Origin: Candidatus Firestonebacteria bacterium RIFOXYD2_FULL_39_29
GTDB lineage: Bacteria; Oederibacteriota; D2-FULL-39-29
Assembly (NCBI GenBank): GCA_001778375.1
Contig: MFGV01000082.1
Coordinates: 1 to 64,000, forward strand
Direction of reading: 5' to 3'
DNA length: 64,000 nucleotides
Shown: positions 16,423 to 64,000 of the stretch, piece after piece
Position numbering within the stretch: position 1 is the first letter of the stretch
Layout of the letters: each line of letters starts with the position of its first letter
Position numbers and translations under genes: made by a program
Notes under the pieces: model-generated
What the model was told of the DNA's origin: nothing
The model's input: the letters and a program-made list of their open reading frames with translations, nothing else
The model's database searches: none

Positions 16423-16449
16423 ATCGTATTTATAATTTATGAATACGAT
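16423..16449. promoter_or_regulatory. Inverted repeat overlapping the recombinase start codon
   Basis: ATCGTATT (16423-16430) and AATACGAT (16442-16449) form 8-base arms around the ATG at 16439. A related arrangement (CGTAT...ATACG) spans the start of the RadC-like gene at 55284. The arms fit an operator. The enclosed TATAAT (16431-16436) is too close to the ATG to serve as its promoter. Confidence 0.5.
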
Positions 16450-17233
16450 AGAAGCGAAAGACATTAAAAGCCAAAAAGACAGGGTGTTCTATAACAATAT
16501 CCGACAAACTATTGACCATCTACAAAACTTCATTGTAAACGAAGCCCCAGCCTGTACTTCCAAAGAAAAGATAACCGATTCCCGCTCTGCATATAAATTA
16601 TGCAAGAATGAGGAAACTATGGCAGTATATTTAAAAGACGAAATGTGGATAGCTGATATTCGTGTCAATGGTAAAAGATACCGTAAAAAGTTTCGTGAAG
16701 AAAGTGGTAGACTTCGGTTCCTTGACAATGAAGAGGTTAACCGGTTATTAAAAAACACTCCGGAACAGATAAAACCAATCATAATTGTGGCCTTGTATAC
16801 AGGTCTTAGGCGAGGGGAATTGTTCAATCTTGAGTGGAAAGACATAGACCTCAAGCGTAAAGTTCTCAATGTGATTAAGAGTAAATCCGGGAAAGTAATG
16901 GAAATACCAATGAATGAATTTGCATATAATACCTTTTTGAAGTTGAAAACAGCTGATAATTGTGGTAAAATCTTTAACACTGTAAATTTCAGGAAATTAT
17001 TTGCGCAAGCTGTAAAGGGAGCAAAACTTAACGACGTAATTATGTACACGACCAGACACACGTTCGCCTCGCAGCTCGTTATGGCAGGTGTTGACCTTGT
17101 TACGGTAAAAGAACTCTTAGGACACTCAAAGATAGAGATGACGATGAAGTACGCACATTTATCACAGAATCATAAGCGGCAAGCAGTAGAGCAGTTGGCA
17201 AGTAGGATAAATATCAGTAATGAAGAAAAATAG
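16439..17233 (+). CDS. Chimeric tyrosine recombinase with a RadC-derived N-terminus
   Basis: 264 residues. Residues 91-255 form the catalytic domain: Arg124 in TGLRRGE, a lysine near 149-152, Arg206 in TTRHTFAS (the usual histidine three residues earlier is Tyr203), His229 in LLGHS and nucleophile Tyr238 in MKYAH. Residues 61-90 resemble the AP2-like arm-binding segment of phage integrases (DIRVNGKRYRKKF). The SAM-like core-binding domain normally between the two is missing. Residues 15-57 are instead 35/43 identical to residues 16-58 of the RadC-like protein at 55284. A fusion or deletion event is the simplest reading. Such a protein may be inactive, or may bind DNA differently. It lies 240 bases upstream of half a tRNA-Pro gene. 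Confidence 0.9.
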   Translation: MNTIEAKDIKSQKDRVFYNNIRQTIDHLQNFIVNEAPACTSKEKITDSRSAYKLCKNEETMAVYLKDEMWIADIRVNGKRYRKKFREESGRLRFLDNEEVNRLLKNTPEQIKPIIIVALYTGLRRGELFNLEWKDIDLKRKVLNVIKSKSGKVMEIPMNEFAYNTFLKLKTADNCGKIFNTVNFRKLFAQAVKGAKLNDVIMYTTRHTFASQLVMAGVDLVTVKELLGHSKIEMTMKYAHLSQNHKRQAVEQLASRINISNEEK

Positions 17234-17253
17234 TGGACACTTTTCGGACACAA
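17232..17253 (+). repeat. 22-base direct repeat, copy 1
   Basis: AGTGGACACTTTT, then C, then GGACACAA, starting inside the recombinase stop codon. It recurs at 17632-17653 with one change. The unit itself holds two GGACAC words 8 bases apart, as recombinase arm-binding sites often do. Confidence 0.7.
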
Positions 17254-17299
17254 GAACTTTACAAAAACGAAAACCTCTAAATACCCTTTAAAAATATGT

Positions 17300-17428
17300 C
17301 GGGGCGTCCGCTGTGAAACAGCGAGACCTTGCCGGAAAACCGGCGGGAGGCGTCCTCCGCAAAGCGGAGAGATCTCGCCGAAGGCGGACAGGTGGCTAGC
17401 GCATCCACCTAGGTGGATGGTCGCCCGA
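17300..17428 (+). repeat. Hairpin cluster embedded in a second tRNA-Pro-like fragment
   Basis: Starts with GTCGGGGCGT, the same acceptor sequence as the tRNA half at 17475, then breaks into consecutive hairpins: CGCTG/CAGCG (17309-17323), GCCGG/CCGGC (17331-17344), CTCCGC/GCGGAG (17355-17369) and CGCC/GGCG (17376-17386). It then resumes the tRNA D-arm sequence CAGGTGGCTAGCGCA (17389-17403), runs into a perfect 16-base palindrome ATCCACCTAGGTGGAT (17403-17418) and ends with TCGCCCGA, close to a 3' acceptor strand. It is GC-rich in an AT-rich region. Confidence 0.7.
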
Positions 17429-17474
17429 TTATAATGAAATAATATAAATTGCACGGAAGTTTGTTGGAAGATGT

Positions 17475-17518
17475 CGGGGCGTGGCGCAGGTGGCTAGCGC
17501 ACTCGCTTGGGGTGCGGA
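17475..17518 (+). tRNA. 5' half of a tRNA-Pro(GGG) gene
   Basis: The sequence fits a tRNA through the anticodon arm: acceptor CGGGGCG (17475-17481), D-stem GCGC/GCGC (17484-17487 with 17497-17500) with loop AGGTGGCTA, anticodon stem CTCGC with GCGGA, and loop TTGGGGT giving anticodon GGG. No variable loop, T-arm or matching 3' acceptor follows. The break falls in the anticodon stem, a common phage or element attachment point, so this is probably one edge of an integration or excision scar. It is not a working tRNA. Confidence 0.75.
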
Positions 17519-20348: not shown

Positions 20349-20504
20349 AGTTGAAAGATGAAGAAAGCATTGGAATTCTTTCTTACACAATGTCTGTTGG
20401 TGGTCTTTATACGGCAACGAGACCGTAGGAATAAATAATTTCAGCTAATGTGTCTTAATTTAAACCCTACTATATACTACTGTATACATTCGTATTATCT
20501 TTGT

Positions 20505-22388
20505 ATGAATGATTTATTCTCAACCGATACTGAACCTTTAGGGAACTACCGCATCATCAGGGATGTCGACCTGCCTTTCTTTGCCTCTGTTTTAGAGAAA
20601 TCCAATATCATCTCTCTCGCCCTCACGACCACCGGTCTGGATGTTTTCTCAGACCGCATAGTCGGGATATCTTTATCTGTTTGCGCCAAAGAAGCTTTTT
20701 ATATCCCTCTATCTCATAACCAAGGTGTTAACCTCAACCCTTCAGAGGTCTTATCTTTTCTCAAGCCTATTCTAGAGCGTAGTAGGATTATATCCCACGA
20801 CCTCAAGTTTGTTTACAAGTTCCTCCTTCGTCAGGGTATATCCCTTAACATCTATTCCGATACTCTATTGCTTTCCCATCTCGATGATGTTAACCAATCT
20901 TTATCTCTCAAATCCCTTGCGTCCCGTTACCTCGGTTTGAATATGGTCTGCTTCTCCGACCTCTTCTTCCGCAGGAAGAAATCTTCTATCCCCAATATCT
21001 CCGACCTTCCCGCCAAGGATGTTTATATTTATCCCTGTGCCGATGCCGATATATGCTACCGCCTTTACCGCTATTTTCTTCTGAGGAGTATTTATCTTAA
21101 CCCTTCCCTCCTCGATAAAATCCGGGATTATTCTTACAGCATTACAGCCGGAGACCTCACACTCCCAGGCCTCCATGTTATCGAGCGTAATCTCATTCGT
21201 ACCGTAGCCCACATGGAACTCAACGGCATCTCTATCAATAGTTTGTCTTTAGAGGAGCACATCGAAGAGATGACCTCGGAGATTGAAATCTTTAAATCCA
21301 GCATCTCAGCTTTATCTCCTTCCGGCATTGACCTTAACAGCAACCAGCAGGTCTCGCATCTTTTATACTCCGATCTCAAGCTTCCATACAAGGGTCCCAT
21401 CACCAAGAGCCGGACTCCGTCTGTTTCCACGCCCTGTCTTAAGAGAATCGAAGACCTGCATCCTGTTGTCAAAGCCATTATAGAATACCGCACCCTCGTA
21501 AAACAGAAGGGGATGTTAGAGGGATATTTATCGTCTATAAATCCTTACACAAATGCAATCCATACATCATTCCTTCAATGGCATGTGCCCTCAGGACGCT
21601 TCGCAAGTTCTACTCCAAATCTCCAGAATGTCCCCGAAGACCTTCGGCGTCATTTCATAGCCCGGGCGGGCTACACCTTTGTCAACTTTGATTATTCGCA
21701 GATAGAATACCGTGTCATCGCCAGCCTCGCCCAGGAGGAGCCTCTCATTCAATCTTTTAACGAGGACAAAGACATTCATCGCGAAACTGCCGCTATTCTT
21801 TTCAATGTCCCTTATTCTCTTGTCACCGACGACCAGCGGAGGAAGGGAAAGACGATAAACTTCGCCTTAATTTTTGGTATGGAATCCTTCAGTCTCGCCG
21901 ACCGCCTCAAGATTGACCGCGCCTCCGCGAAGCAACTTTTGGAGGATTACTTCACCGCAGTTCCTAAAATCAAGTCGTTCATAGACTCCACCCACAAGCA
22001 GGTCGTCGACCTCGGCTTTGTCGAAACCTACTTTGGCCGTCGTCGCTATATCCCCGAAGCCCAAAGCAAAGACCGAAAACTCCATGGCTACGGCCTCCGG
22101 TCCGCCGTGTCACATCGAATTCAAGGTACCGCCAGCGATATTCTCAAGCTTGCAATGCTTCGTGTCTCCAAGGAGTTTAATCTAAAGGCTACTTTTAATA
22201 ACACAAGCCCTATAAAGCTTCTCCTCACTGTCCACGACTCCCTGCTGTTCGAAGTCCACGAAAGCGTTCCTTTGGAGGATTTCAAACAAAGGGTTTTAAA
22301 GTGTATGCAGATAAATATCTCCGGCTTTTGTCATCTGTCTGTCTCCTGCTCCACCGGCCAGGTTTGGAGCGATCTAAAAGACCTATAA
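20505..22388 (+). CDS. Divergent family A DNA polymerase (PolA-like, no 5' nuclease domain)
   Basis: 627 residues from the ATG at 20505; the frame is open 19 codons upstream but the first plausible protein start is MNDLFSTD. Residues about 15-200 are a 3'-5' exonuclease fold whose first motif is ALTTTGLD where DTETTGLD is expected, so the metal-binding Asp and Glu are lost and proofreading is probably absent. The polymerase domain keeps motif A (FDYSQIEYR) and motif B (RRKGKTINFALIFG, with Ala and Phe replacing the usual Gly and Tyr). Motif C is TVHDSLLFEV with Ser where Pol I has Glu. The DNA is distinctly C-rich compared with its neighbours, suggesting transfer. Likely a replicase of the mobile element. 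Confidence 0.9.
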   Translation: MNDLFSTDTEPLGNYRIIRDVDLPFFASVLEKSNIISLALTTTGLDVFSDRIVGISLSVCAKEAFYIPLSHNQGVNLNPSEVLSFLKPILERSRIISHDLKFVYKFLLRQGISLNIYSDTLLLSHLDDVNQSLSLKSLASRYLGLNMVCFSDLFFRRKKSSIPNISDLPAKDVYIYPCADADICYRLYRYFLLRSIYLNPSLLDKIRDYSYSITAGDLTLPGLHVIERNLIRTVAHMELNGISINSLSLEEHIEEMTSEIEIFKSSISALSPSGIDLNSNQQVSHLLYSDLKLPYKGPITKSRTPSVSTPCLKRIEDLHPVVKAIIEYRTLVKQKGMLEGYLSSINPYTNAIHTSFLQWHVPSGRFASSTPNLQNVPEDLRRHFIARAGYTFVNFDYSQIEYRVIASLAQEEPLIQSFNEDKDIHRETAAILFNVPYSLVTDDQRRKGKTINFALIFGMESFSLADRLKIDRASAKQLLEDYFTAVPKIKSFIDSTHKQVVDLGFVETYFGRRRYIPEAQSKDRKLHGYGLRSAVSHRIQGTASDILKLAMLRVSKEFNLKATFNNTSPIKLLLTVHDSLLFEVHESVPLEDFKQRVLKCMQINISGFCHLSVSCSTGQVWSDLKDL

Positions 22389-55269: not shown

Positions 55270-55300
55270 CGTATTTATTCTTTATGAGAGATACGATAAC
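55270..55300. promoter_or_regulatory. Operator-like repeat around the RadC start
   Basis: CGTATTTA (55270-55277) before and ATACGATA after the ATG at 55284 reproduce the arrangement at the recombinase start (16423-16449). Both copies sit over the same coding start of the shared leader. Confidence 0.45.
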
Positions 55301-55820
55301 CGCAGAAAACATTAACGGCGTAAGGAATCGGATATTCTATAATAATATACGCCAAACTATTGACCATCTTCAAAACTTCCTTATAAACGAATCTCCAGCC
55401 TGTATTTCCAAGGAAAAGATAACCGACTCCCATACTGCGTATGGGTTGTGCAAGAATATGGAGCTGTTGGAAAAAGAAGAATTTCGCATCCTCATCATGG
55501 ATACCCTTAATCAGCTTACGCGTATTGAAACCATATCAATAGGTACTGTCAATTCAAGCCTGGTAACTCCAAGAGAAGTATATAGAGCGGCATTGCTGTA
55601 TGACGCGGTAACTATTATTGGTGTCCATAACCACCCCAGCGGTTCTATTGAGCCTTCAGACCAAGACATCAAAATCACCAGGGACTTATGCAAAGCAGGA
55701 AAGCTTATAAATATTAAATTTCTTGACCACCTTATTATCGGCAATCAGCGTTATTCCAGTATGGCCGACTTAGGGCTCTTACCTAAAGAAGTTAAAGCTA
55801 CTTCAGGGGTTATTAACTAA
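55284..55820 (+). CDS. RadC-like JAMM-domain protein
   Basis: 178 residues. Residues about 58-165 form the RadC/JAB domain with the metal-site motif HNHPSGSIEPSDQD (His115, His117, Asp128) and a conserved SIGTVNSSLVTPREVYRAAL region. RadC proteins are common on mobile elements and act in DNA metabolism, although no repair role is proven. Residues 16-58 are almost the same as the N-terminus of the recombinase at 16439. The stop overlaps the ligase start by one base. Confidence 0.9.
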   Translation: MRDTITAENINGVRNRIFYNNIRQTIDHLQNFLINESPACISKEKITDSHTAYGLCKNMELLEKEEFRILIMDTLNQLTRIETISIGTVNSSLVTPREVYRAALLYDAVTIIGVHNHPSGSIEPSDQDIKITRDLCKAGKLINIKFLDHLIIGNQRYSSMADLGLLPKEVKATSGVIN

Positions 55821-57001
55821 TGCGGACATATAACGAGCTATTTAAGCGCTGTGACGAACTCGGGATTCCTATTAACCCTTCAAATGGATACACCAAGGAA
55901 GGATTACAGAACCTCATACGAGACCATCTTTGGCAGAGAGACCATCCAGATGAAAAGATGCTTCTCCAGGTAGAACCCGAGCTTGCTCAAAGTATCGAGG
56001 AACTTAACGACAAAAAAGCTGAGGATATCTGGAATTCCAAAGACTATTGCGCTCAGCTTAAACTCGACGGTAATAGAATATTATTGCACATAGGTAAGAC
56101 TTCTAACAGAGCTACCAGCAGGAGGAAGTCTGACGTTACCTTTCTCTTTTCTGAGAAAACCGACAATATGCCTTCTCAGAGAGATTTCTTGCTCCCAGAC
56201 TATGAGGGCACAGTCTTAGATGGTGAAGCCATAATGCCAGTGCCAGATTTAGATACCGGGTCAGTAATTACTTCGTCGGAATTGCAGTCTACTTCCGCAG
56301 TCTTAAACTGCTCGCCTGATCTAAGCAAAAAGCTTCAGGAAGGCAGACCTATAATCTACCATATTTTTGATGTGATCTACTGGAAGGGAAAGAATGTTAT
56401 GCCTTTATCGTATGATATCCGTTTAAATCTCGTTGACAATATATTTTTGGAGATAAACAGCCGCGGCGGGAGCAATTACTTTTCCAGGGTAGAGACCGTA
56501 CTTGATAACAAGAAACAGTTTTATCAAGATATGATTGCGCAGGGTAAAGAAGGTGTTATGCTTAAATCTCTAAATAGCATCTATGAGCCTGGCAAAAGAA
56601 CCTGGAACTGGTTAAAAGTAAAGGAGTGGAGCGAATACGACGGCATCATCACCGGTTGGCTTCCTTCAACAGAAGGTAAGGGATATGAAAACCTTATTGG
56701 CTCTCTTGAAGTAAGCGCTTATGATGAGAACAGAATCCTTCGTCCCATAGCCTGTGTCAGTCCCAGATCATTAGAGGAACGCAAATCATTAACACAAATC
56801 AATAATTCAGGTCAGGTTGGATTAAAGGCGGATATCCTTGGCAAGGTTGTTACAGTTCGGGGAAGGGAATGGTCAGGCAAGAGCATACGCCTTAAACATG
56901 CCGTACTTTTAACTTGGCGCGAGGACAAGAGTCCAGAAGACTGTGCAATTAACTTTAATACTATCAAGTCTAAGTTAGAGTTAGGGGAGCGTGTAAGATG
57001 A
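55820..57001 (+). CDS. ATP-dependent DNA ligase
   Basis: 393 residues. Nucleotidyltransferase motifs are visible: KLDG with adenylated Lys81, DGEA, FDVIYW, EGVMLKS (motif IV) and WLKVK (motif V). A C-terminal OB-fold follows (about 280-380). An N-terminal extension of about 70 residues precedes. Such ligases are typical of phages and conjugative elements and would seal nicks for element replication. It overlaps the next gene by 4 bases (ATGA). Confidence 0.9.
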   Translation: MRTYNELFKRCDELGIPINPSNGYTKEGLQNLIRDHLWQRDHPDEKMLLQVEPELAQSIEELNDKKAEDIWNSKDYCAQLKLDGNRILLHIGKTSNRATSRRKSDVTFLFSEKTDNMPSQRDFLLPDYEGTVLDGEAIMPVPDLDTGSVITSSELQSTSAVLNCSPDLSKKLQEGRPIIYHIFDVIYWKGKNVMPLSYDIRLNLVDNIFLEINSRGGSNYFSRVETVLDNKKQFYQDMIAQGKEGVMLKSLNSIYEPGKRTWNWLKVKEWSEYDGIITGWLPSTEGKGYENLIGSLEVSAYDENRILRPIACVSPRSLEERKSLTQINNSGQVGLKADILGKVVTVRGREWSGKSIRLKHAVLLTWREDKSPEDCAINFNTIKSKLELGERVR

Positions 57002-57315
57002 AAAACACAGATTGGGAAATTGTTTCAACATATACCATGGAGCAAGCTGTATCTGACGGCATTCTTGTTAAAGTAGGTTGGTGTATATCCGGTAAAGCCA
57101 AAACCCCAGTGGTATTTACTTCTAACCTGTTTTATTCCGGCGGTTATCAGGATGCTGACCTGAGGTTAAAACTCATCACTCGTGGTTTAGAATCTTTGCA
57201 GAAGCCCGACAAAGAAGACGATGACTATAGGAAGTTGCGCGTCCTCGAAAAGAATGAAATCTGGCTGATCGAAGACCCCACTGGCCTTACCTTTATGCGC
57301 CCTGAGGACTACTAA
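56998..57315 (+). CDS. Small hypothetical protein of the element
   Basis: 105 residues, MKNTDWEIVSTYTMEQAVSDG..., soluble, without motifs I recognise. It overlaps the ligase stop by 4 bases (ATGA), so it belongs to the RadC-ligase operon. The beginning resembles small DUF6573-type plasmid proteins found next to PRTRC-type cassettes (W.IVSTYT..QA), but I am not certain. Confidence 0.55.
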   Translation: MKNTDWEIVSTYTMEQAVSDGILVKVGWCISGKAKTPVVFTSNLFYSGGYQDADLRLKLITRGLESLQKPDKEDDDYRKLRVLEKNEIWLIEDPTGLTFMRPEDY

Positions 57316-57396: not shown

Positions 57397-57738
57397 CTAT
57401 ATTTTCCTCTTAGGGATCATATAATAGTGTTTATCGAATTTATCTCTGACATCATTTCTCAAATCTTCAAAGGTTTTATGTCCATGCTTTTTTAATAAAG
57501 CATAGAAACCAGGACCTTTATAGCTTTCTGCGATTGCACTCCAAAAAAAGACAAACATTCCGCGAAAATTAAGTTTTAAGAGCCTGGAAATAGTAATCCT
57601 GACACCTTTCTTAATACTTGGATTGGTTTTTTCATCATTTATGATTTCATTCCAGCTGAGTGACTTTGCTAGGAAATCAAAGAATTCTTTTTCTTTACCT
57701 TTTAAATCCTTATAAGCTTCAGACTTAAAGATATCCAT
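57397..57738 (-). CDS. Hypothetical protein on the opposite strand
   Basis: 113 residues, with AGGAGG 5 bases before its ATG on the minus strand. Basic, helical, no known motif (MDIFKSEAYKDLKGKEKEF...). It separates the ligase operon from the ubiquitin-like cassette and is transcribed against both, so it may be an insertion. Confidence 0.6.
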   Translation of the reverse strand: MDIFKSEAYKDLKGKEKEFFDFLAKSLSWNEIINDEKTNPSIKKGVRITISRLLKLNFRGMFVFFWSAIAESYKGPGFYALLKKHGHKTFEDLRNDVRDKFDKHYYMIPKRKI

Positions 57739-57849: not shown

Positions 57850-58047
57850 ATGGAGAACAGGCCAATAGCGGTAAAGAACAGAATTGCCAAGTACCTTGAT
57901 TATGAGGTCGAGGTGGGGAATGACGAGACCCCCGAACAAGTCAAAACAAACCTGTCAGAGATTTTCCCTGAAATATCGCATGCTAAATATACCCAGCATC
58001 CTGACGGGACTATCGAATTTGAGGTAACCGCCGGCACAAAAGGGTAA
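57850..58047 (+). CDS. Ubiquitin-like small protein (PRTRC protein C / Prok_Ub family)
   Basis: 65 residues, MENRPIAVKNRIAKYLDYEV..., predicted beta-grasp, ending in a single C-terminal glycine (EVTAGTKG). Length, position and pattern match the small protein (PRTRC_C, Pfam Prok_Ub) found beside E1-, E2- and JAB-like genes in PRTRC cassettes. By analogy it would be activated by the ThiF protein and joined to targets. No diglycine needs processing, since the glycine is already terminal. Function unproven. The four downstream genes follow with tight spacing. Confidence 0.75.
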   Translation: MENRPIAVKNRIAKYLDYEVEVGNDETPEQVKTNLSEIFPEISHAKYTQHPDGTIEFEVTAGTKG

Positions 58048-58051
58048 GCCT

Positions 58052-58288
58052 ATGGATAATATCTTCAAGGACACAGATATTGACTTCCAGCGGAAGATCA
58101 ACAGGGCAAAGCAGTTCTTGACCGTCTTTAACAAAAAGGATCTGGTTATTGATTCTTTAACAACAAAGAAGATAGGCAGATATACCGCTCTATTCGGTGA
58201 ATTACTGTCCTACAATACCCAAATGGAGACCATTGAAGATTCTTTGCTCTCTTCCAAGAGCGAGTGTATAAGCGAGGGATATATCTGA
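58052..58288 (+). CDS. Unknown small protein in the ubiquitin-like cassette
   Basis: 78 residues, MDNIFKDTDIDFQRKINRAK..., helical and polar. It lies 4 bases after the ubiquitin-like gene and its end overlaps the upstream frame of the next gene, so it is translated in the same operon. No motif is recognised. It may be a cassette-specific adaptor or substrate. Confidence 0.6.
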   Translation: MDNIFKDTDIDFQRKINRAKQFLTVFNKKDLVIDSLTTKKIGRYTALFGELLSYNTQMETIEDSLLSSKSECISEGYI

Positions 58289-58290
58289 TT

Positions 58291-58881
58291 ATGGCTAATA
58301 ACCCGTCTGCTTCGGACATAGTTACTACTTTAAACCGTCTGGCATATGTTTCCTTTATGAAGGATGCCAAGGTGTTAGGCTATGTTTCCCATAATCAGAA
58401 TGTTCCTCTCAATGTATCCCCTCAGAGCATTAGCTGTAATCTACGAAAGCTTTTAAAGTCCCTAATCAAAGAAGATGTAAGCATTTCAAAGTTCAGGTCC
58501 GCATTCCGCTGGCATGTAGAGGTTGTACAGAAGCAGGAATACGGTGACTCCGATTTCAGAGAGTATATTTCCAGCAATGGTCTTCTTAAAAAGCATTTCC
58601 ATACTCAAAGCAATAACTTTGACGGATTATTCCGATGTTCCTTGGAGCTATTCTCCTTTATGCATCATAACAGCCAGCGTTATCTTGAATACAATCAAAG
58701 CTTTGTCACAGATCTTAAGTCTTACATTGATAAAATAACTACATTAAAAGACCTCCTGCCTTCTTTATATGATCAATTTCTCGACAAGGAAGCAAAATTC
58801 AAAAAGCAGCTACAGGAAAGATATATGGCTATTGCAAACAAGAAGAAAGAAAAGAAGGAAAACAAGCGTGCTCTGTTATGA
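58291..58881 (+). CDS. Unknown helical protein in the ubiquitin-like cassette
   Basis: 196 residues from the ATG at 58291 (an upstream frame start at 58264 overlaps the previous gene and lacks a site). Mostly helical with a highly basic Lys-rich C-terminus (NKKKEKKENKRALL). Overlaps the E2-like gene start by 4 bases (ATGA). It occupies the place of PRTRC protein E in other cassettes, but I see no conserved motif to confirm that. Confidence 0.6.
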   Translation: MANNPSASDIVTTLNRLAYVSFMKDAKVLGYVSHNQNVPLNVSPQSISCNLRKLLKSLIKEDVSISKFRSAFRWHVEVVQKQEYGDSDFREYISSNGLLKKHFHTQSNNFDGLFRCSLELFSFMHHNSQRYLEYNQSFVTDLKSYIDKITTLKDLLPSLYDQFLDKEAKFKKQLQERYMAIANKKKEKKENKRALL

Positions 58882-59549
58882 CTACGATCCATTTGGAGTC
58901 ATACGGTGTTCGTGTGGAGCTTCAGGATGAGAACAATAAGAAGCAGTACCGCTATCTATCCCCTAATAAGTTTAAGGAAATAGTCTTACGAGATACGAAA
59001 TTTGACAGCGGGTTACTGCCTCCCGGTACTTTATCCTATCAGCGAACAGGAGGTGGAGAGAAGATTACATTACTCCGCCCCGACCAGGTGTTTAAGGTTA
59101 AATACAATAACAATAAAGCTGATGGCGCACCAGTTGTGTTTGACTTCCAGGTACCGTTACCGCCGTTAGTGTGGATTTACGAGGTAAACTCCAATCGGTT
59201 GTTATATTCCACCAAAGTCTTTGCTATCGGAAAGGAAACAATAACAGATAATATCATGCTTTATAATGCGCCTTTTTCCAATGTCCACCCAAACGGCGAG
59301 GTCTGTTGGGGAACGGCCGGCAACTTGATTGATAAGCCGTTTAAATCCCTCCAGGGAATGTCTAATCTACCAAGGATATTCTTTCTATCCCCGTTTAACG
59401 AAGATTTATTCAATAACGACAGTAATGGACCCGGAACCCGCATGCTTAACTGGTTTAAATCTTATGACGGGAAGCAGGAATTCCCATATAGCGAATTAAA
59501 GCCGTATGGAATCTTAAGCGAGGTGTTGCATGGTAAAGTCAATCGTTAG
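58878..59549 (+). CDS. E2-like protein (PRTRC protein B / Prok-E2_D-like)
   Basis: 223 residues. The segment APFSNVHPNGEVCWGT (131-146) matches the E2-type active-site pattern HPN-x-G-x-C, with candidate catalytic Cys143. Preceding residues (about 85-130) are beta-rich as in Prok-E2 folds, and the length fits PRTRC_B. It would accept the ubiquitin-like protein from the E1. It overlaps the JAB gene by 20 bases, so the partners are made together. Confidence 0.75.
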   Translation: MTTIHLESYGVRVELQDENNKKQYRYLSPNKFKEIVLRDTKFDSGLLPPGTLSYQRTGGGEKITLLRPDQVFKVKYNNNKADGAPVVFDFQVPLPPLVWIYEVNSNRLLYSTKVFAIGKETITDNIMLYNAPFSNVHPNGEVCWGTAGNLIDKPFKSLQGMSNLPRIFFLSPFNEDLFNNDSNGPGTRMLNWFKSYDGKQEFPYSELKPYGILSEVLHGKVNR

Positions 59550-60276
59550 TCAGTTAGTGAACCACAGTATAGGCCTTCCCAAGAAACTTATTAAGCCTGT
59601 AAACTATATCTTATGCGGTACGGGAGCAAAGGAGATAAGAGAAACGGAATTAGGAACCATTATCGTAACCCCGAAAGAAATAGTCGGCCTAGAGAAAGTA
59701 CAAGAAGGCTTTAAGATAAAACTGCCTAAGATCCCTGTTGTTCTTCTTTTGACCTGTTTAAGCTTCTTTAAGAAGGTTTATATGAAACATCAGTCAGAAG
59801 CGCTCCTTCAGATATTCTGGGATCGCAACCGTAAGTCTTACTATATCCACTGTCCTCCCCAGCAGGTAGGCCCTGCCTCAGTCAAGTTCGAACATAATAC
59901 GGCAATGGAGAAAGAGAACATCCTGGCTCTTGAAATCCATAGTCACGGGAATATGCAGGCTTTCTTCTCAGCCGTGGATGACGGTGATGAGAAGGCTACC
60001 CGTCTTTATGCGGTAGCAGGACAGATAACAGAACCTTTACCTCAACTTAAAATCCGCGCTTGCTGTGGTACCTCGTCTATCCCTGTATCTTTAGAGGATA
60101 TCTTTGACCTGGTATCAGAAGTTCCCGATAAATGGTTTAAAGAGATAAACCCTGTGGAAGACGACGAACATCAAACAGAACTGGATATGCTGCTATACGG
60201 CTGTAGCATGGAGCGTGATTTACCGGGCGTTGGACAGGACCTGCATAAGCCTGGTTTAAATATTGAGGATCTATAA
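59530..60276 (+). CDS. JAMM (JAB/Mov34) peptidase-like protein (PRTRC protein A)
   Basis: 248 residues. The JAMM metal-binding motif is present as HSH...S..D: His137, His139, Ser147 and Asp150 (HSHGNMQAFFSAVDD). The N-terminal 60 residues are a separate beta-rich part. Such enzymes remove ubiquitin-like tags or trim their precursors. It stands between the E2-like and E1-like genes, as in PRTRC cassettes. Confidence 0.8.
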   Translation: MVKSIVSQLVNHSIGLPKKLIKPVNYILCGTGAKEIRETELGTIIVTPKEIVGLEKVQEGFKIKLPKIPVVLLLTCLSFFKKVYMKHQSEALLQIFWDRNRKSYYIHCPPQQVGPASVKFEHNTAMEKENILALEIHSHGNMQAFFSAVDDGDEKATRLYAVAGQITEPLPQLKIRACCGTSSIPVSLEDIFDLVSEVPDKWFKEINPVEDDEHQTELDMLLYGCSMERDLPGVGQDLHKPGLNIEDL

Positions 60277-60279
60277 TCT

Positions 60280-61047
60280 ATGAAAATAACTCTGCCAAAG
60301 ACATACTTTGAGAATAACCTTTACACCCATGTAAGAATCCTTCAGATAGGAGCCGGAGGGACCGGGAGCGCTCTGGTTCCCCTGCTTGCCCGTTTAATTG
60401 CTTCAGAAAGAGAGATGACTTTTGAATATCTGATTGTTGACGGTGACCGCGTTAGTATATCTAACATTGTTAGGCAGAACTTTATTAAGTCGGACATAGG
60501 TAAGCCGAAGGCAGAAGTCTTAACCCAAAGATACGGCTCTGCATTTGGCGTAAACCTATCCTGTATATCTAAATATTACAATGAAGAAACAGCAGAGAAA
60601 GTAAAGCTGAACGTGTTTGATATTGTGGTTGGCTGTGTGGATAATAATAAAGCCAGAGCTTTTATATCTTCAGAGTTATCAAAGATAGATAATAATTACA
60701 ATCGTCCTCTGTACATAGATTCAGGAAACGAACTTATCGGTGGTCAGACCTTTATTCAAGGAATGTTGAAAGACTCATACTGCGGGCCAAAGCTTATCGA
60801 GCAACATCCTGAGATTGCTAACCAGGACACCAATTCAGAAAGAAGCTGTACTGCAAACCTTGCAAACGGTACTCAGCGTCTAACCACTAATCAAACGGCA
60901 GCTGTATTTCTCTTCAATGTCATAGACCAGTACATCCACAAGGTAAACATCCCTTATTATGAAATCAACTGGACGACGTCAAATACCGTGAGTAAGATAT
61001 TTTTAGATGACTGGGTTAAATCCAAGGGGAACCTTGCTCAGGCATAA
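60280..61047 (+). CDS. E1-like ThiF-family activating enzyme (PRTRC ThiF)
   Basis: 255 residues. Rossmann nucleotide-binding loop GAGGTGS (24-30), Asp54 (VDGD), the Arg-containing NIVRQNF (62-68), Lys75 and the GCVDNN motif (118-123) are those of E1 enzymes that adenylate a terminal glycine. Cys190 in ERSCTANLA is a candidate for the thioester. It lacks the ubiquitin-fold and extra domains of eukaryotic E1. It ends the cassette and is followed directly by the post-stop motif. Confidence 0.85.
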   Translation: MKITLPKTYFENNLYTHVRILQIGAGGTGSALVPLLARLIASEREMTFEYLIVDGDRVSISNIVRQNFIKSDIGKPKAEVLTQRYGSAFGVNLSCISKYYNEETAEKVKLNVFDIVVGCVDNNKARAFISSELSKIDNNYNRPLYIDSGNELIGGQTFIQGMLKDSYCGPKLIEQHPEIANQDTNSERSCTANLANGTQRLTTNQTAAVFLFNVIDQYIHKVNIPYYEINWTTSNTVSKIFLDDWVKSKGNLAQA

Positions 61048-61356: not shown

Positions 61357-61575
61357 ATGGACAGAAAGCTGCAATTTATTCAAAGCAATAGTAATATCAA
61401 TATCAGGGAGTTTACCGGACCCGTCTGTGAGCTTCGCAATGGAGTGTGGAGACTAACCCCGGCTTTTAGAACTTTTATAGAACAGCTTATTGTTGCCTCT
61501 AAGGGAAGGTCTGCTAAAGTCCGCATTGAGTTCTTAATGGATAAGGATATCATAGTCAGTCTTTCCGACCTATAA
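61357..61575 (+). CDS. Small hypothetical protein
   Basis: 72 residues, MDRKLQFIQSNSNINIREF..., soluble, ending IIVSLSDL. TTGGAGGAG precedes the ATG. Probably part of the element; not recognised. Confidence 0.5.
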   Translation: MDRKLQFIQSNSNINIREFTGPVCELRNGVWRLTPAFRTFIEQLIVASKGRSAKVRIEFLMDKDIIVSLSDL

Positions 61576-61628: not shown

Positions 61629-61862
61629 ATGCCGGAGAAAGTAATAATACATAACAGTAGTTACAACCTTGTCGAGAGTAAGGGCCGTCTCTATATCATT
61701 CCCCAGCCGGCTAAGCCTAACCCATATAAACTGAGCAATATATTTGCTTCAACTGTTACCGTCGTGCTATGTGCCTGCCTACTGTTATTTCCAGCGGTCA
61801 GCATCTTCCTTCTTTTATCCCTGATCTTTACAAATATGTTTAAGAAAGGACTCAATAAATGA
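61629..61862 (+). CDS. Small membrane protein of the element
   Basis: 77 residues. A polar N-terminus, then a hydrophobic region (about 42-70) that could form one or two membrane segments, and a basic end. Its stop overlaps the AAA+ start by 4 bases (ATGA), so the two are coupled. Function unknown; perhaps a membrane anchor for the ATPase. Confidence 0.6.
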   Translation: MPEKVIIHNSSYNLVESKGRLYIIPQPAKPNPYKLSNIFASTVTVVLCACLLLFPAVSIFLLLSLIFTNMFKKGLNK

Positions 61863-63136
61863 AGCGAAGTGTAACTGTAGAGATAAACAAGCCTGTATTA
61901 TATAAATATGCCGAGGACTATCTGTCCTCTATAATGGCGAAATTCCTAGGTGAAAAACGCACAGATATCATCGTCTTGTTTAGAGATTTCTATCCCGCAG
62001 CGTTTAGGGTCGTATCCTTTGCAATCTACAAGCTTATAAACGACAACTACACTATAATAAAAACAAACAATGGATATGCAGAAGAATTGCCTTTCCCGAT
62101 CATTTACGATCAGTCTGGTAGCAATAAAACAAGCCCATATTGCGCAAACTACTTCCTAAAAGACAAGAATGGCAATAAAATGGCTGTGCGGATGAAGCTA
62201 TCTAAGGATGACTTTGTGAAATCATATTTTCATGTCTATCTCCCCGCAAGCAAGCTGGATTTGGGGAAGAAGTTCTTTGCCGACTTAGAGAACACAATTA
62301 TGTCTTTAACTGATTTAAGGTTGAACGCTGGGGGAGAATTTATAGAGTCGATTCAGCAACTTACAGATGAAGAACTTATATTACCCGAAGAAATAAAGCG
62401 CTCTATAAAATCTAATGTCATAGGTATTATAGAAAGATATAGATTACACGGCAATAACAATAAGCTGAATGAATTTAATATTATTAAGAGAGGCATTCTA
62501 TTGTTTGGCGCTCCTGGAACAGGCAAAAGCCTTACTATCCGTTGGCTTATGTCAACGCTCAGATGTAACTTTATTGTAGCCACAGGAAAACATCTCAAAC
62601 GAAGCGAAGACGTCTCTGAAGTATTTTCCCTTGCTCGAAGCATCCGACCTTGTGTTGTTGTTCTGGAGGATTTAGATCTCTATGGACTTTCCAGAGATGG
62701 AGGATATTTTAATGGAGGAGTTCTAAATGAACTTTTAAATCAATTGGATGGTGCAGCTAATTTAAATGGTGTTATTACCATCGCTACGGCGAACAAAACA
62801 GAGGTGCTCGATAAAGCGCTAACCAAACGTCCCGGTCGATTTGATGTTATTTTGCATTATAAGAACCCTTTGCCAAAAGAAAGGTTAAGCCTATTACAAT
62901 TGAACTTATCTAAGACCGATACGGACAAAACTCTTAACATAAATCATATCGCCGATATAACAGAAGATTTTAGCCCTGCCCAGATTGTGGAGATAGTTAA
63001 AAGAGGCTATCTGTCAGCTATCGAAAGAGGAGATAACATTATTCGTCAAACGGACCTTGTATCTGCAGTTGACCAGCTAAAAGAACCAGCAACCAAAGAG
63101 ATTGGATTTAAAACTCCAAAAGGAAAAGCTGAATGA
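61859..63136 (+). CDS. AAA+ ATPase (Bcs1/FtsH-like core)
   Basis: 425 residues. N-terminal part (about 1-190) is unassigned; the AAA+ core (about 205-370) has Walker A GAPGTGKS (217-224), Walker B VVVLEDLD, a sensor-1 region ITIATANK, and arginine fingers in RPGRFD. No protease domain follows, so it probably remodels proteins or DNA-protein complexes. It overlaps the nuclease start by 4 bases (ATGA). Confidence 0.85.
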   Translation: MKRSVTVEINKPVLYKYAEDYLSSIMAKFLGEKRTDIIVLFRDFYPAAFRVVSFAIYKLINDNYTIIKTNNGYAEELPFPIIYDQSGSNKTSPYCANYFLKDKNGNKMAVRMKLSKDDFVKSYFHVYLPASKLDLGKKFFADLENTIMSLTDLRLNAGGEFIESIQQLTDEELILPEEIKRSIKSNVIGIIERYRLHGNNNKLNEFNIIKRGILLFGAPGTGKSLTIRWLMSTLRCNFIVATGKHLKRSEDVSEVFSLARSIRPCVVVLEDLDLYGLSRDGGYFNGGVLNELLNQLDGAANLNGVITIATANKTEVLDKALTKRPGRFDVILHYKNPLPKERLSLLQLNLSKTDTDKTLNINHIADITEDFSPAQIVEIVKRGYLSAIERGDNIIRQTDLVSAVDQLKEPATKEIGFKTPKGKAE

Positions 63137-64000
63137 CCGACTTCAATATAACCGAGTACCTGTCAAAGTACAAACCGCATAACAGCATGCAGATTGTTCC
63201 AAGAGCAGTTCCTTACTTCTCGTTCTATTCTTTACGGTTGTTGGAATGCCCATATCGCTACAAAATGATGGTGATTCTGAGAGACCCCTTAAGTAAGATG
63301 CAGGATTTTAGAAACGCATTATCCGGAAGTGTTGTACATGGTCTTGCAGAAATGTTTCTAAAGGGTAGATATAAAGACCTTTCATGGCTAAAAGAAAATA
63401 CCTTGCCTCTTTTTAACAAGATCATCTCAGAAGTTCCCGTACTCATTTGGCGTGGTGACCCCGAGGAAGATAAAGCAACAGTTCTAACTCACATTAATCA
63501 AATGGTAGATTACCTTATTCAATACTTCAAAGATATTAAACTGCTTGAATCAGCTAAAATATTCCCAGAGCATACCTTCAAGACATTAATAGCCGGTGAA
63601 CTAAAAGTCAATCCTCTTGCTATATCCGGCCGTGTTGACCTGATTACCGTATCCAAAGATGGGTTTGTGGATATTTATGATTTTAAGTGTGTGAACATAA
63701 TAAGCGAGGAAGGGCTTTCCAAACTGCAATTCCTTTTCTATTTTGTCGGCATATTGGGTATGGATATTGGGAGAATCAGAAGCCTGAGATTTATCTTGCC
63801 TGCCTTAAAAATGGACCTACAGATTAAATTCTCGAGCAAGGATTTAGAAAACTTTATTAAACAAATAAAGTTAGCTTATAAAGAGGTAGCTCAATGTCAT
63901 AAGACCGGCTTCTTTGCCAAACCAGGGAGGCAATGTGGCTTCTGTATGTATAAGACCGGTGAATGCGACAAGTACAAACTACTAAACCTAAAACCTTCGT
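63133..64000 (+). CDS. PD-(D/E)XK nuclease, Cas4/RecB-like (partial at window end)
   Basis: 289 residues are visible before the window ends without a stop. PDDEXK motifs: GSVVHGLAE with a conserved His, SGRVDLIT with a conserved Asp, DIYDFKC with the D-x-K pair, and LSKLQFLFYF with a conserved Gln. A cysteine cluster near the end (QCGFCMYKTGEC) resembles the iron-sulfur cluster of Cas4/AddB-type exonucleases. Likely a 5'-3' exonuclease for recombination or end processing in the element. Confidence 0.85.
   Translation, partial: MTDFNITEYLSKYKPHNSMQIVPRAVPYFSFYSLRLLECPYRYKMMVILRDPLSKMQDFRNALSGSVVHGLAEMFLKGRYKDLSWLKENTLPLFNKIISEVPVLIWRGDPEEDKATVLTHINQMVDYLIQYFKDIKLLESAKIFPEHTFKTLIAGELKVNPLAISGRVDLITVSKDGFVDIYDFKCVNIISEEGLSKLQFLFYFVGILGMDIGRIRSLRFILPALKMDLQIKFSSKDLENFIKQIKLAYKEVAQCHKTGFFAKPGRQCGFCMYKTGECDKYKLLNLKPS

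Follow-up and report, generated by a model that had tools for sequence, protein, structure and literature searches.

What does a ubiquitin-like conjugation cassette do on a mobile element of a bacterium? The question is raised by a locus in Candidatus Firestonebacteria, in which we analyzed bases 1–64,000 (hereafter, the window) of the 96,295-bp contig MFGV01000082.1. Six genes at nt. 57,850–61,047 of the window, all on the forward strand, encode a ubiquitin-like protein (Ubl), the products of two open reading frames (ORF2 and ORF3), an E2-like protein, a JAB peptidase, and an E1-like protein (Table 1), and are separated, in order, by 4 bp, 2 bp, an ATGA overlap, a 20-bp overlap, and 3 bp. We put the probability at roughly 0.5 that this operon is a working Ubl conjugation and deconjugation system acting on the replication and recombination proteins of the element that carries it. 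The initial annotation had described Ubl, E2, JAB, and E1 genes, overlapping or nearly touching on one strand, as the full set for activation, transfer, and removal of a tag; all four are present as described, with the two further ORFs lying between Ubl and E2. These ORFs are more than chance, given the family matches of the E2, E1, and JAB proteins and ratios of nonsynonymous to synonymous substitution (dN/dS) of 0.02–0.12 for all six genes in comparison with a sister element in a second genome (G001).

The E2-like protein matched Pfam Prok-E2_D (PF14460; 8.2e-15, above the cut-off) and PRTRC_B (TIGR03737; 2.7e-10, below the cut-off), while the JAB peptidase matched PRTRC_A (TIGR03735; 8e-16) and Prok-JAB (1e-4), both below the cut-off, and the E1 matched Pfam ThiF (7e-16) and PRTRC_ThiF (TIGR03736; 1.6e-33 over residues 15–223, 116 bits against a cut-off of 144.75). 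As all NCBIfam scores fell under the equivalog cut-offs, the cassette is a divergent member of the PRTRC type. Of the families the initial annotation had named for these proteins (Prok_Ub, Prok-E2_D, JAB, and ThiF), those of the E2 and ThiF were recovered and that of the JAB was found below its cut-off, while the Ubl gave no Prok_Ub match and was recognized solely by a profile of its relatives (described below).

The catalytic residues picked out earlier in the JAB and E1 proteins held up on alignment. The JAB motif (HSH-x7-S-x2-D) is kept in all 15 sequences compared, and the E1 residues G24, G26, G27, G29, and C190 are invariant across 16 sequences. The E2 had been identified by an HPNGEVC stretch, and here only the cysteine stood: Cys143 is conserved in 19/19 sequences, but the HPN of this stretch (residues 137–139) is variable and was misaligned, the true asparagine being N135 (18/19, with P132 at 19/19). 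The window E2 thus has F133-S134-N135 where HPN is expected and lacks the HPN histidine. In eukaryotic E2s, the HPN asparagine lies eight residues before the cysteine, a spacing equal to that between N135 and Cys143. Most relatives carry a histidine 24 to 32 residues after the cysteine, but none occurs in the 60 residues following Cys143 of the window E2, and the sister E2 also lacks it, as do several relatives (e.g., those of the Bacillus velezensis plasmid pAD3, L006, and of locus L011). Such a histidine downstream of the cysteine has been proposed to compensate for the missing HPN histidine in E2s of operon type 6d (PMC1779556). Structural comparison added little, with no credible match, and hence no solved structure found, for the E2 and Ubl profiles in a PDB search, and an unusable AlphaFold model of the E2 (2-row alignment; predicted local distance difference test (pLDDT) score of 33).

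The homology of the E1 to ThiF/MoeB would also suit a ThiS/MoaD-like sulfur carrier, in which ThiF-type activation serves thiolation and not protein tagging. This is very improbable, given almost every locus examined has an E2 with a conserved cysteine beside the E1, and usually a JAB too, and no rhodanese, cysteine desulfurase, or cofactor genes were seen next to the window cassette.

The Ubl itself displayed no match to Pfam or NCBIfam, including PF14454 (Prok_Ub) and TIGR03738 (PRTRC_C). However, a profile built solely from cyanobacterial and proteobacterial/Nitrospirota relatives, with Firestonebacteria sequences excluded, picked out the window Ubl at 2.5e-5 (among 2520 ORFs), alongside the Ubls of other loci. 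In the family alignment, 8 of 13 rows match Prok_Ub and 7 of 13 match PRTRC_C, and the window Ubl is 41% identical (2e-9) to Ubl units of the Bacillus phage KLEB27-3. In a check for the beta-grasp fold, an AlphaFold model of the Ubl (3-row alignment) reached a pLDDT of 66.6 and returned no Foldseek matches below E = 1.

The family shares a G-x-K-G C-terminus, and the window Ubl stops exactly there, at ..AGTKG, with Gly65 as its last residue, which suggests a protein born mature, its glycine predicted to be exposed without processing. Relatives differ in this respect. On two cyanobacterial plasmids the Ubl extends beyond ..GTKG into a tail of ~80 a.a., while Pseudanabaena has separate genes. 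In phage KLEB27-3 (vB_BauM_KLEB27-3, OM634661; L008:4035-4742), four near-identical 57-a.a. Ubl units lie head to tail, each ending ..KAGVKG before the next MARTVKY.., with a final tail (MPRIVVK) and adjoining E2, JAB, and E1 genes; this tandem arrangement on a phage genome resembles a polyubiquitin precursor in layout. Poly-Ubls with units ending AGTKG also lie upstream of E2-JAB-E1 in B. velezensis pAD3 (four units; L006:4133-4870) and a Cytobacillus plasmid (two units; L055:6657-6998). The occurrence of ..GxKG as an internal junction in the poly-Ubls and in the two cyanobacterial Ubl-tail fusions supports it as the processing or cleavage end. We also noted JAB peptidases with a Ubl-looking N-terminal region ending ..KKGA at L020:7973-8914 and L017:7896-8906, of which only the former matched the profile.

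ORF2 lies where cyanobacterial PRTRC loci have a tail after the Ubl. It has no Pfam or NCBIfam match and showed no similarity to the cyanobacterial tails using hhalign, so the idea that it is a split-off Ubl tail comes from position. Likewise, ORF3 matched nothing in Pfam or NCBIfam and showed no similarity using hhalign to the cyanobacterial proteins in the PRTRC_F position.

Purifying selection on the cassette is strong, and strongest on the tag. Of all the proteins, the Ubl has diverged least between the window and sister elements (97% identity, dN/dS 0.024), followed by ORF2 (0.05), E1 (0.058), JAB (0.082), E2 (0.089), and ORF3 (0.12). Decay to a functionless remnant, which might be suspected from the E2 lacking its usual histidine and from the window's second element copy having shrunk to a scar, is barely credible against this background, with all six genes open and constrained. 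The same ranking bears on an idea raised as speculation by Iyer in 2006 (PMC1779556), that of an addiction module, where E1 and E2 would modify a host protein so as to harm or alter it and the JAB would reverse this, leaving cells that lose the element worse off. A single operon on mobile elements that both writes and erases a mark would suit such a module, but no sign of a toxin was seen and it is the tag itself that is most conserved; we consider the idea improbable.

From the observed gene content, gene order, residues, selection, and mobile context, we infer conjugate formation by the following route. The E1 would adenylate Gly65 of the ready-made Ubl and hold the Ubl on Cys190, from which it would be handed on to Cys143 of the E2. 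Acting without an E3, the E2 would then place the Ubl on lysines of proteins engaged in copying, recombining, or partitioning the element; candidate targets are proteins of the clamp or clamp loader, the annealing protein of Sak4/Rad52 type, and ParB. The JAB peptidase would take the Ubl off again and, given the Ubl is encoded to end exactly at ..AGTKG, would act on conjugates and not on a precursor. The chemistry of activation, transfer, and removal is very probable, judging from the residues and their conservation, while replication and recombination proteins as the targets are a tentative proposal. The broader proposition, that the proteins tagged by PRTRC-type systems are the sliding clamp, clamp loader, or annealing recombinase of the replicon carrying the system, is, as yet, unlikely. 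The closest precedent for clamp tagging is the ubiquitylation and SUMOylation of PCNA in eukaryotes, which we offer as an analogy, claiming no homology.

The surroundings agree with the earlier description of a PRTRC-type cassette in a mobile element, with the gene order of plasmid pMOL28 and both ParB and an integrase downstream. Beyond the PD-(D/E)XK gene, which runs past the window to contig position 64,014, come a 175-a.a. ORF and genes for a Sak4-like AAA protein, DnaB-like helicase, Toprim primase-like protein, ATPase, clamp-loader-like protein, ParB, and tyrosine integrase. The integrase ends at contig position 72,694 and adjoins a tRNA-Pro(GGG) at 72,761. ParB (contig 70,524–71,339) lies ~9.5 kb from the cassette and matched TIGR03734 at 6e-12, with better matches to generic ParB and Noc. 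The PD-(D/E)XK protein had been called Cas4-like; we prefer exonuclease-like, as the cas4 match is weak (0.01). Promoter and terminator patterns within the cassette were not commoner than in shuffled sequence, and Rfam gave no matches at 54–64 kb. A 113-a.a. ORF lies on the reverse strand (nt. 57,397–57,738) between the 105-a.a. ORF and the Ubl, in a gap that the sister element has in much reduced form.

Table 1. Features of the window, with nucleotide positions and strand.
Feature	Position (nt.)	Strand	Remarks
Scar of second element copy: RadC N-terminus fused to internally deleted integrase	16439–17233	+	same right-end sequence
49-bp repeat of tRNA-Pro 5′ half, equal to contig 72754–72802	17468–17516	+	possible old attachment site
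RadC-like JAB-fold protein	55284–55820	+	leftmost gene common to sister element
ATP-dependent DNA ligase	55820–57001	+	
105-a.a. ORF	56998–57315	+	conserved in sister element
Ubl, 65 a.a., PRTRC_C-like	57850–58047	+	C-terminus ..AGTKG; profile of relatives, identity to phage units
ORF2, 78 a.a.	58052–58288	+	starts 4 bp past Ubl; by position only; 90% identity in sister element
ORF3, 196 a.a.	58291–58881	+	205 a.a. from GTG start at 58264; in position of PRTRC_F/6d helical protein
E2-like conjugating enzyme (Prok-E2_D, PRTRC_B)	58878–59549	+	Cys143 codon 59304–59306
JAB/JAMM metallopeptidase (PRTRC_A)	59530–60276	+	HSH-x7-S-x2-D intact, residues 137–150
E1-like adenylyltransferase (PRTRC_ThiF)	60280–61047	+	GAGGTG and SC motif; Cys190 codon 60847–60849
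72-a.a. ORF	61357–61575	+	conserved in sister element
77-a.a. ORF	61629–61862	+	hydrophobic stretch; conserved in sister element
AAA+ ATPase	61859–63136	+	IetA/FtsH/PAN-like AAA domain
PD-(D/E)XK exonuclease-like protein	63133–64000	+	runs to contig 64014

The sister element shares the region from RadC to DnaB, as well as ParB (63%), with the window element. Its integrase differs (38%) and adjoins a tRNA-Met, and at L045:577-10124 it bears SIR2, HerA, and type III restriction-modification genes; the cassette is thus retained in two sister elements despite a different integrase, insertion site, and defense cargo. The proportion of synonymous differences (pS) between the two is 0.50–0.63 from RadC to E1 and 0.73–0.84 downstream, and given this lower value the cassette may have been exchanged as a unit. 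Among named relatives, Candidatus Firestonebacteria RIFOXYA2_FULL_40_8 is the closest. In another relative (G002), there is no E2, and the tRNA-Pro(GGG)-surE arrangement is kept with unrelated DNA upstream. A decayed tRNA-Pro-like stretch follows the scar of the second copy, within nt. 16,439–17,516 of the window. An element spanning 17.5–72.8 kb, from the tRNA-Pro repeat onward, was considered and dropped, because 24–55 kb looks chromosomal (purC, AcrB, and penicillin-binding protein genes, with a different GC skew). A phage-like family A DNA polymerase with a 3′-5′ exonuclease domain (nt. 20,448–22,388), 33 kb from RadC, shares 74% DNA identity with one ~4 kb upstream of the sister RadC (L027:609-2519).

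Among more distant relatives, Cupriavidus pMOL28, Manganitrophus, cyanobacteria, Chloroflexota, Rubrobacter, Bacillota plasmids, and a Bacillus phage share the gene order, as does, judged by sequence match, a 234,900-bp viral contig (IMG/VR; L028:2819-8864). This contig carries genes for a Ubl, an E1, an E2-like protein (recognized by eye only), and a JAB, the last of these interrupted, perhaps by an intron. Gene sets vary among the relatives, with no JAB gene annotated in an Alteromonas locus, for instance. Scanning viral contigs with single proteins yielded neither an E2 nor a poly-Ubl, and nothing close to the window cassette; the matches were E1-like and confined to three contigs. The window E1 matched 405 plasmid records at 1e-5, which may include E1s of other kinds.

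Replication genes recur beside these cassettes. The order Rad52-dnaN-x-y-E2-JAB-E1 occurs in Halobacillus, Rossellomorea, and Planococcus; in Lysinibacillus, the E1 is followed immediately by dnaX and another Pol III subunit gene; SSB and RecA genes are also among the neighbors; and in phage MT835919 the E1 overlaps an ORF that we read as clamp-like from its sequence, with no profile match. Among 72,556 plasmids, 316 match dnaN and 78 match this E1 subtype, and we compared the best 60 of each by eye, along with two annotated loci. Among the matches listed, dnaN lies within 10 kb of the E1 on the same strand in 16 of the 23 plasmids with both, against 1.04 expected (p = 2e-17, computed without regard to shared ancestry). 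The role in element replication, stability, or conflict suggested in the initial annotation is therefore plausible, with the replication linkage in plasmids and phages as circumstantial support.

These neighborhoods also bear on a conflict role, in which the system would, like Bil, place the Ubl on proteins of invading phages or plasmids or, like Cap2/Cap3 of CBASS (the cyclic oligonucleotide-based antiphage signaling system), on an immune enzyme that is its partner. Other bacterial E1-E2-JAB systems serve in defense (PMC10097602; PMC11354881), the neighboring AAA+ protein resembles IetA, PADLOC E1-E2 models match the window E1 weakly, and the sister element has its SIR2-HerA and type III restriction genes. 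On the other hand, carriage by a large Bacillus phage and a 235-kb viral contig would be odd for host defense, the conserved neighborhoods consist of replication genes and not defense effectors, the defense cargo varies between the sister elements while the cassette is constant, and no PADLOC model matches the E2 or JAB. A conflict role is therefore a serious alternative that we nonetheless doubt.

PRTRC cassettes (TIGR03734-03738 and related models), such as that of Cupriavidus metallidurans pMOL28, have the same one-strand order of C(Ubl)-x-B(E2)-A(JAB)-ThiF(E1), so that C-F-B-A-ThiF in pMOL28 matches Ubl-x-E2-JAB-E1 in the window, along with a ParB on the same element and the G-x-K-G Ubl end. 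The window differs in its sub-threshold NCBIfam scores, the extra ORF2, the lack of recognizable PRTRC E and F, a distant ParB nearer to generic ParB/Noc, and its residence in an integrative element, not a large plasmid. The operon type 6d of Iyer 2006 and the PRTRC cassette are one and the same, and the gene set has been on record since then. Type 6d (PMC1779556) likewise has a standalone Ubl with a C-terminal glycine, a further protein, E2, JAB, and E1 as separate genes, and an E2 without the HPN histidine; in contrast, the window lacks the downstream histidine, which 6d E2s are said to conserve absolutely, and the protein in the position of the 6d helical protein shows no similarity that we could detect to its counterparts. 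BilABCD (PMC11354881) also encodes Ubl, E2, JAB, and E1 as four genes, and the poly-Ubl relatives recall the two-domain BilA. However, BilA has two Ubl domains, BilB a CEHH motif, and BilD is a pseudodimeric E1 with a Cys domain (PMC11354881), whereas the window has a single 65-a.a. Ubl, no histidine after the E2 cysteine, and a short ThiF-type E1. Type II CBASS Cap2/Cap3 (PMC10097602) shares the E1/E2/JAB logic, and no CD-NTase was found among the annotated ORFs around the window cassette. Unlike Cap2/Cap3, the window has separate E1 and E2 proteins and encodes its own Ubl.

Several points weigh against a system that acts on the replication and recombination proteins of its element. The window E2 has neither the HPN nor the downstream histidine. 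A clamp-loader-like gene occurs in the window element, but we saw no gene for a clamp there. The dnaN linkage counts kindred plasmids: at least 10 linked plasmids have the same ~3.6 kb spacing, leaving about five independent lineages. The cassette may also move as its own module, outside the replication core, as the pS values hint, and the defense cargo of the sister elements fits a conflict role as well.

The titles and abstract openings of the PRTRC literature found state no function, and to our knowledge the bacterial Ubl systems of known role are so far mostly defensive (PMC10097602; PMC11354881). The Firestonebacteria cassette is a divergent member whose host phylum and element are, as far as searched, new to PRTRC. 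PRTRC/6d cassettes are widespread, with poly-Ubl precursors now seen on a phage and plasmids, and the comparison yields named, testable targets (DnaN, DnaX/HolB, Rad52/Sak4, and ParB) and tractable hosts. If replication and recombination proteins are indeed tagged, these cassettes would represent a mobile-element counterpart of PCNA ubiquitylation, with a tandem poly-Ubl precursor resembling polyubiquitin as the source of the tag in some phages and plasmids.

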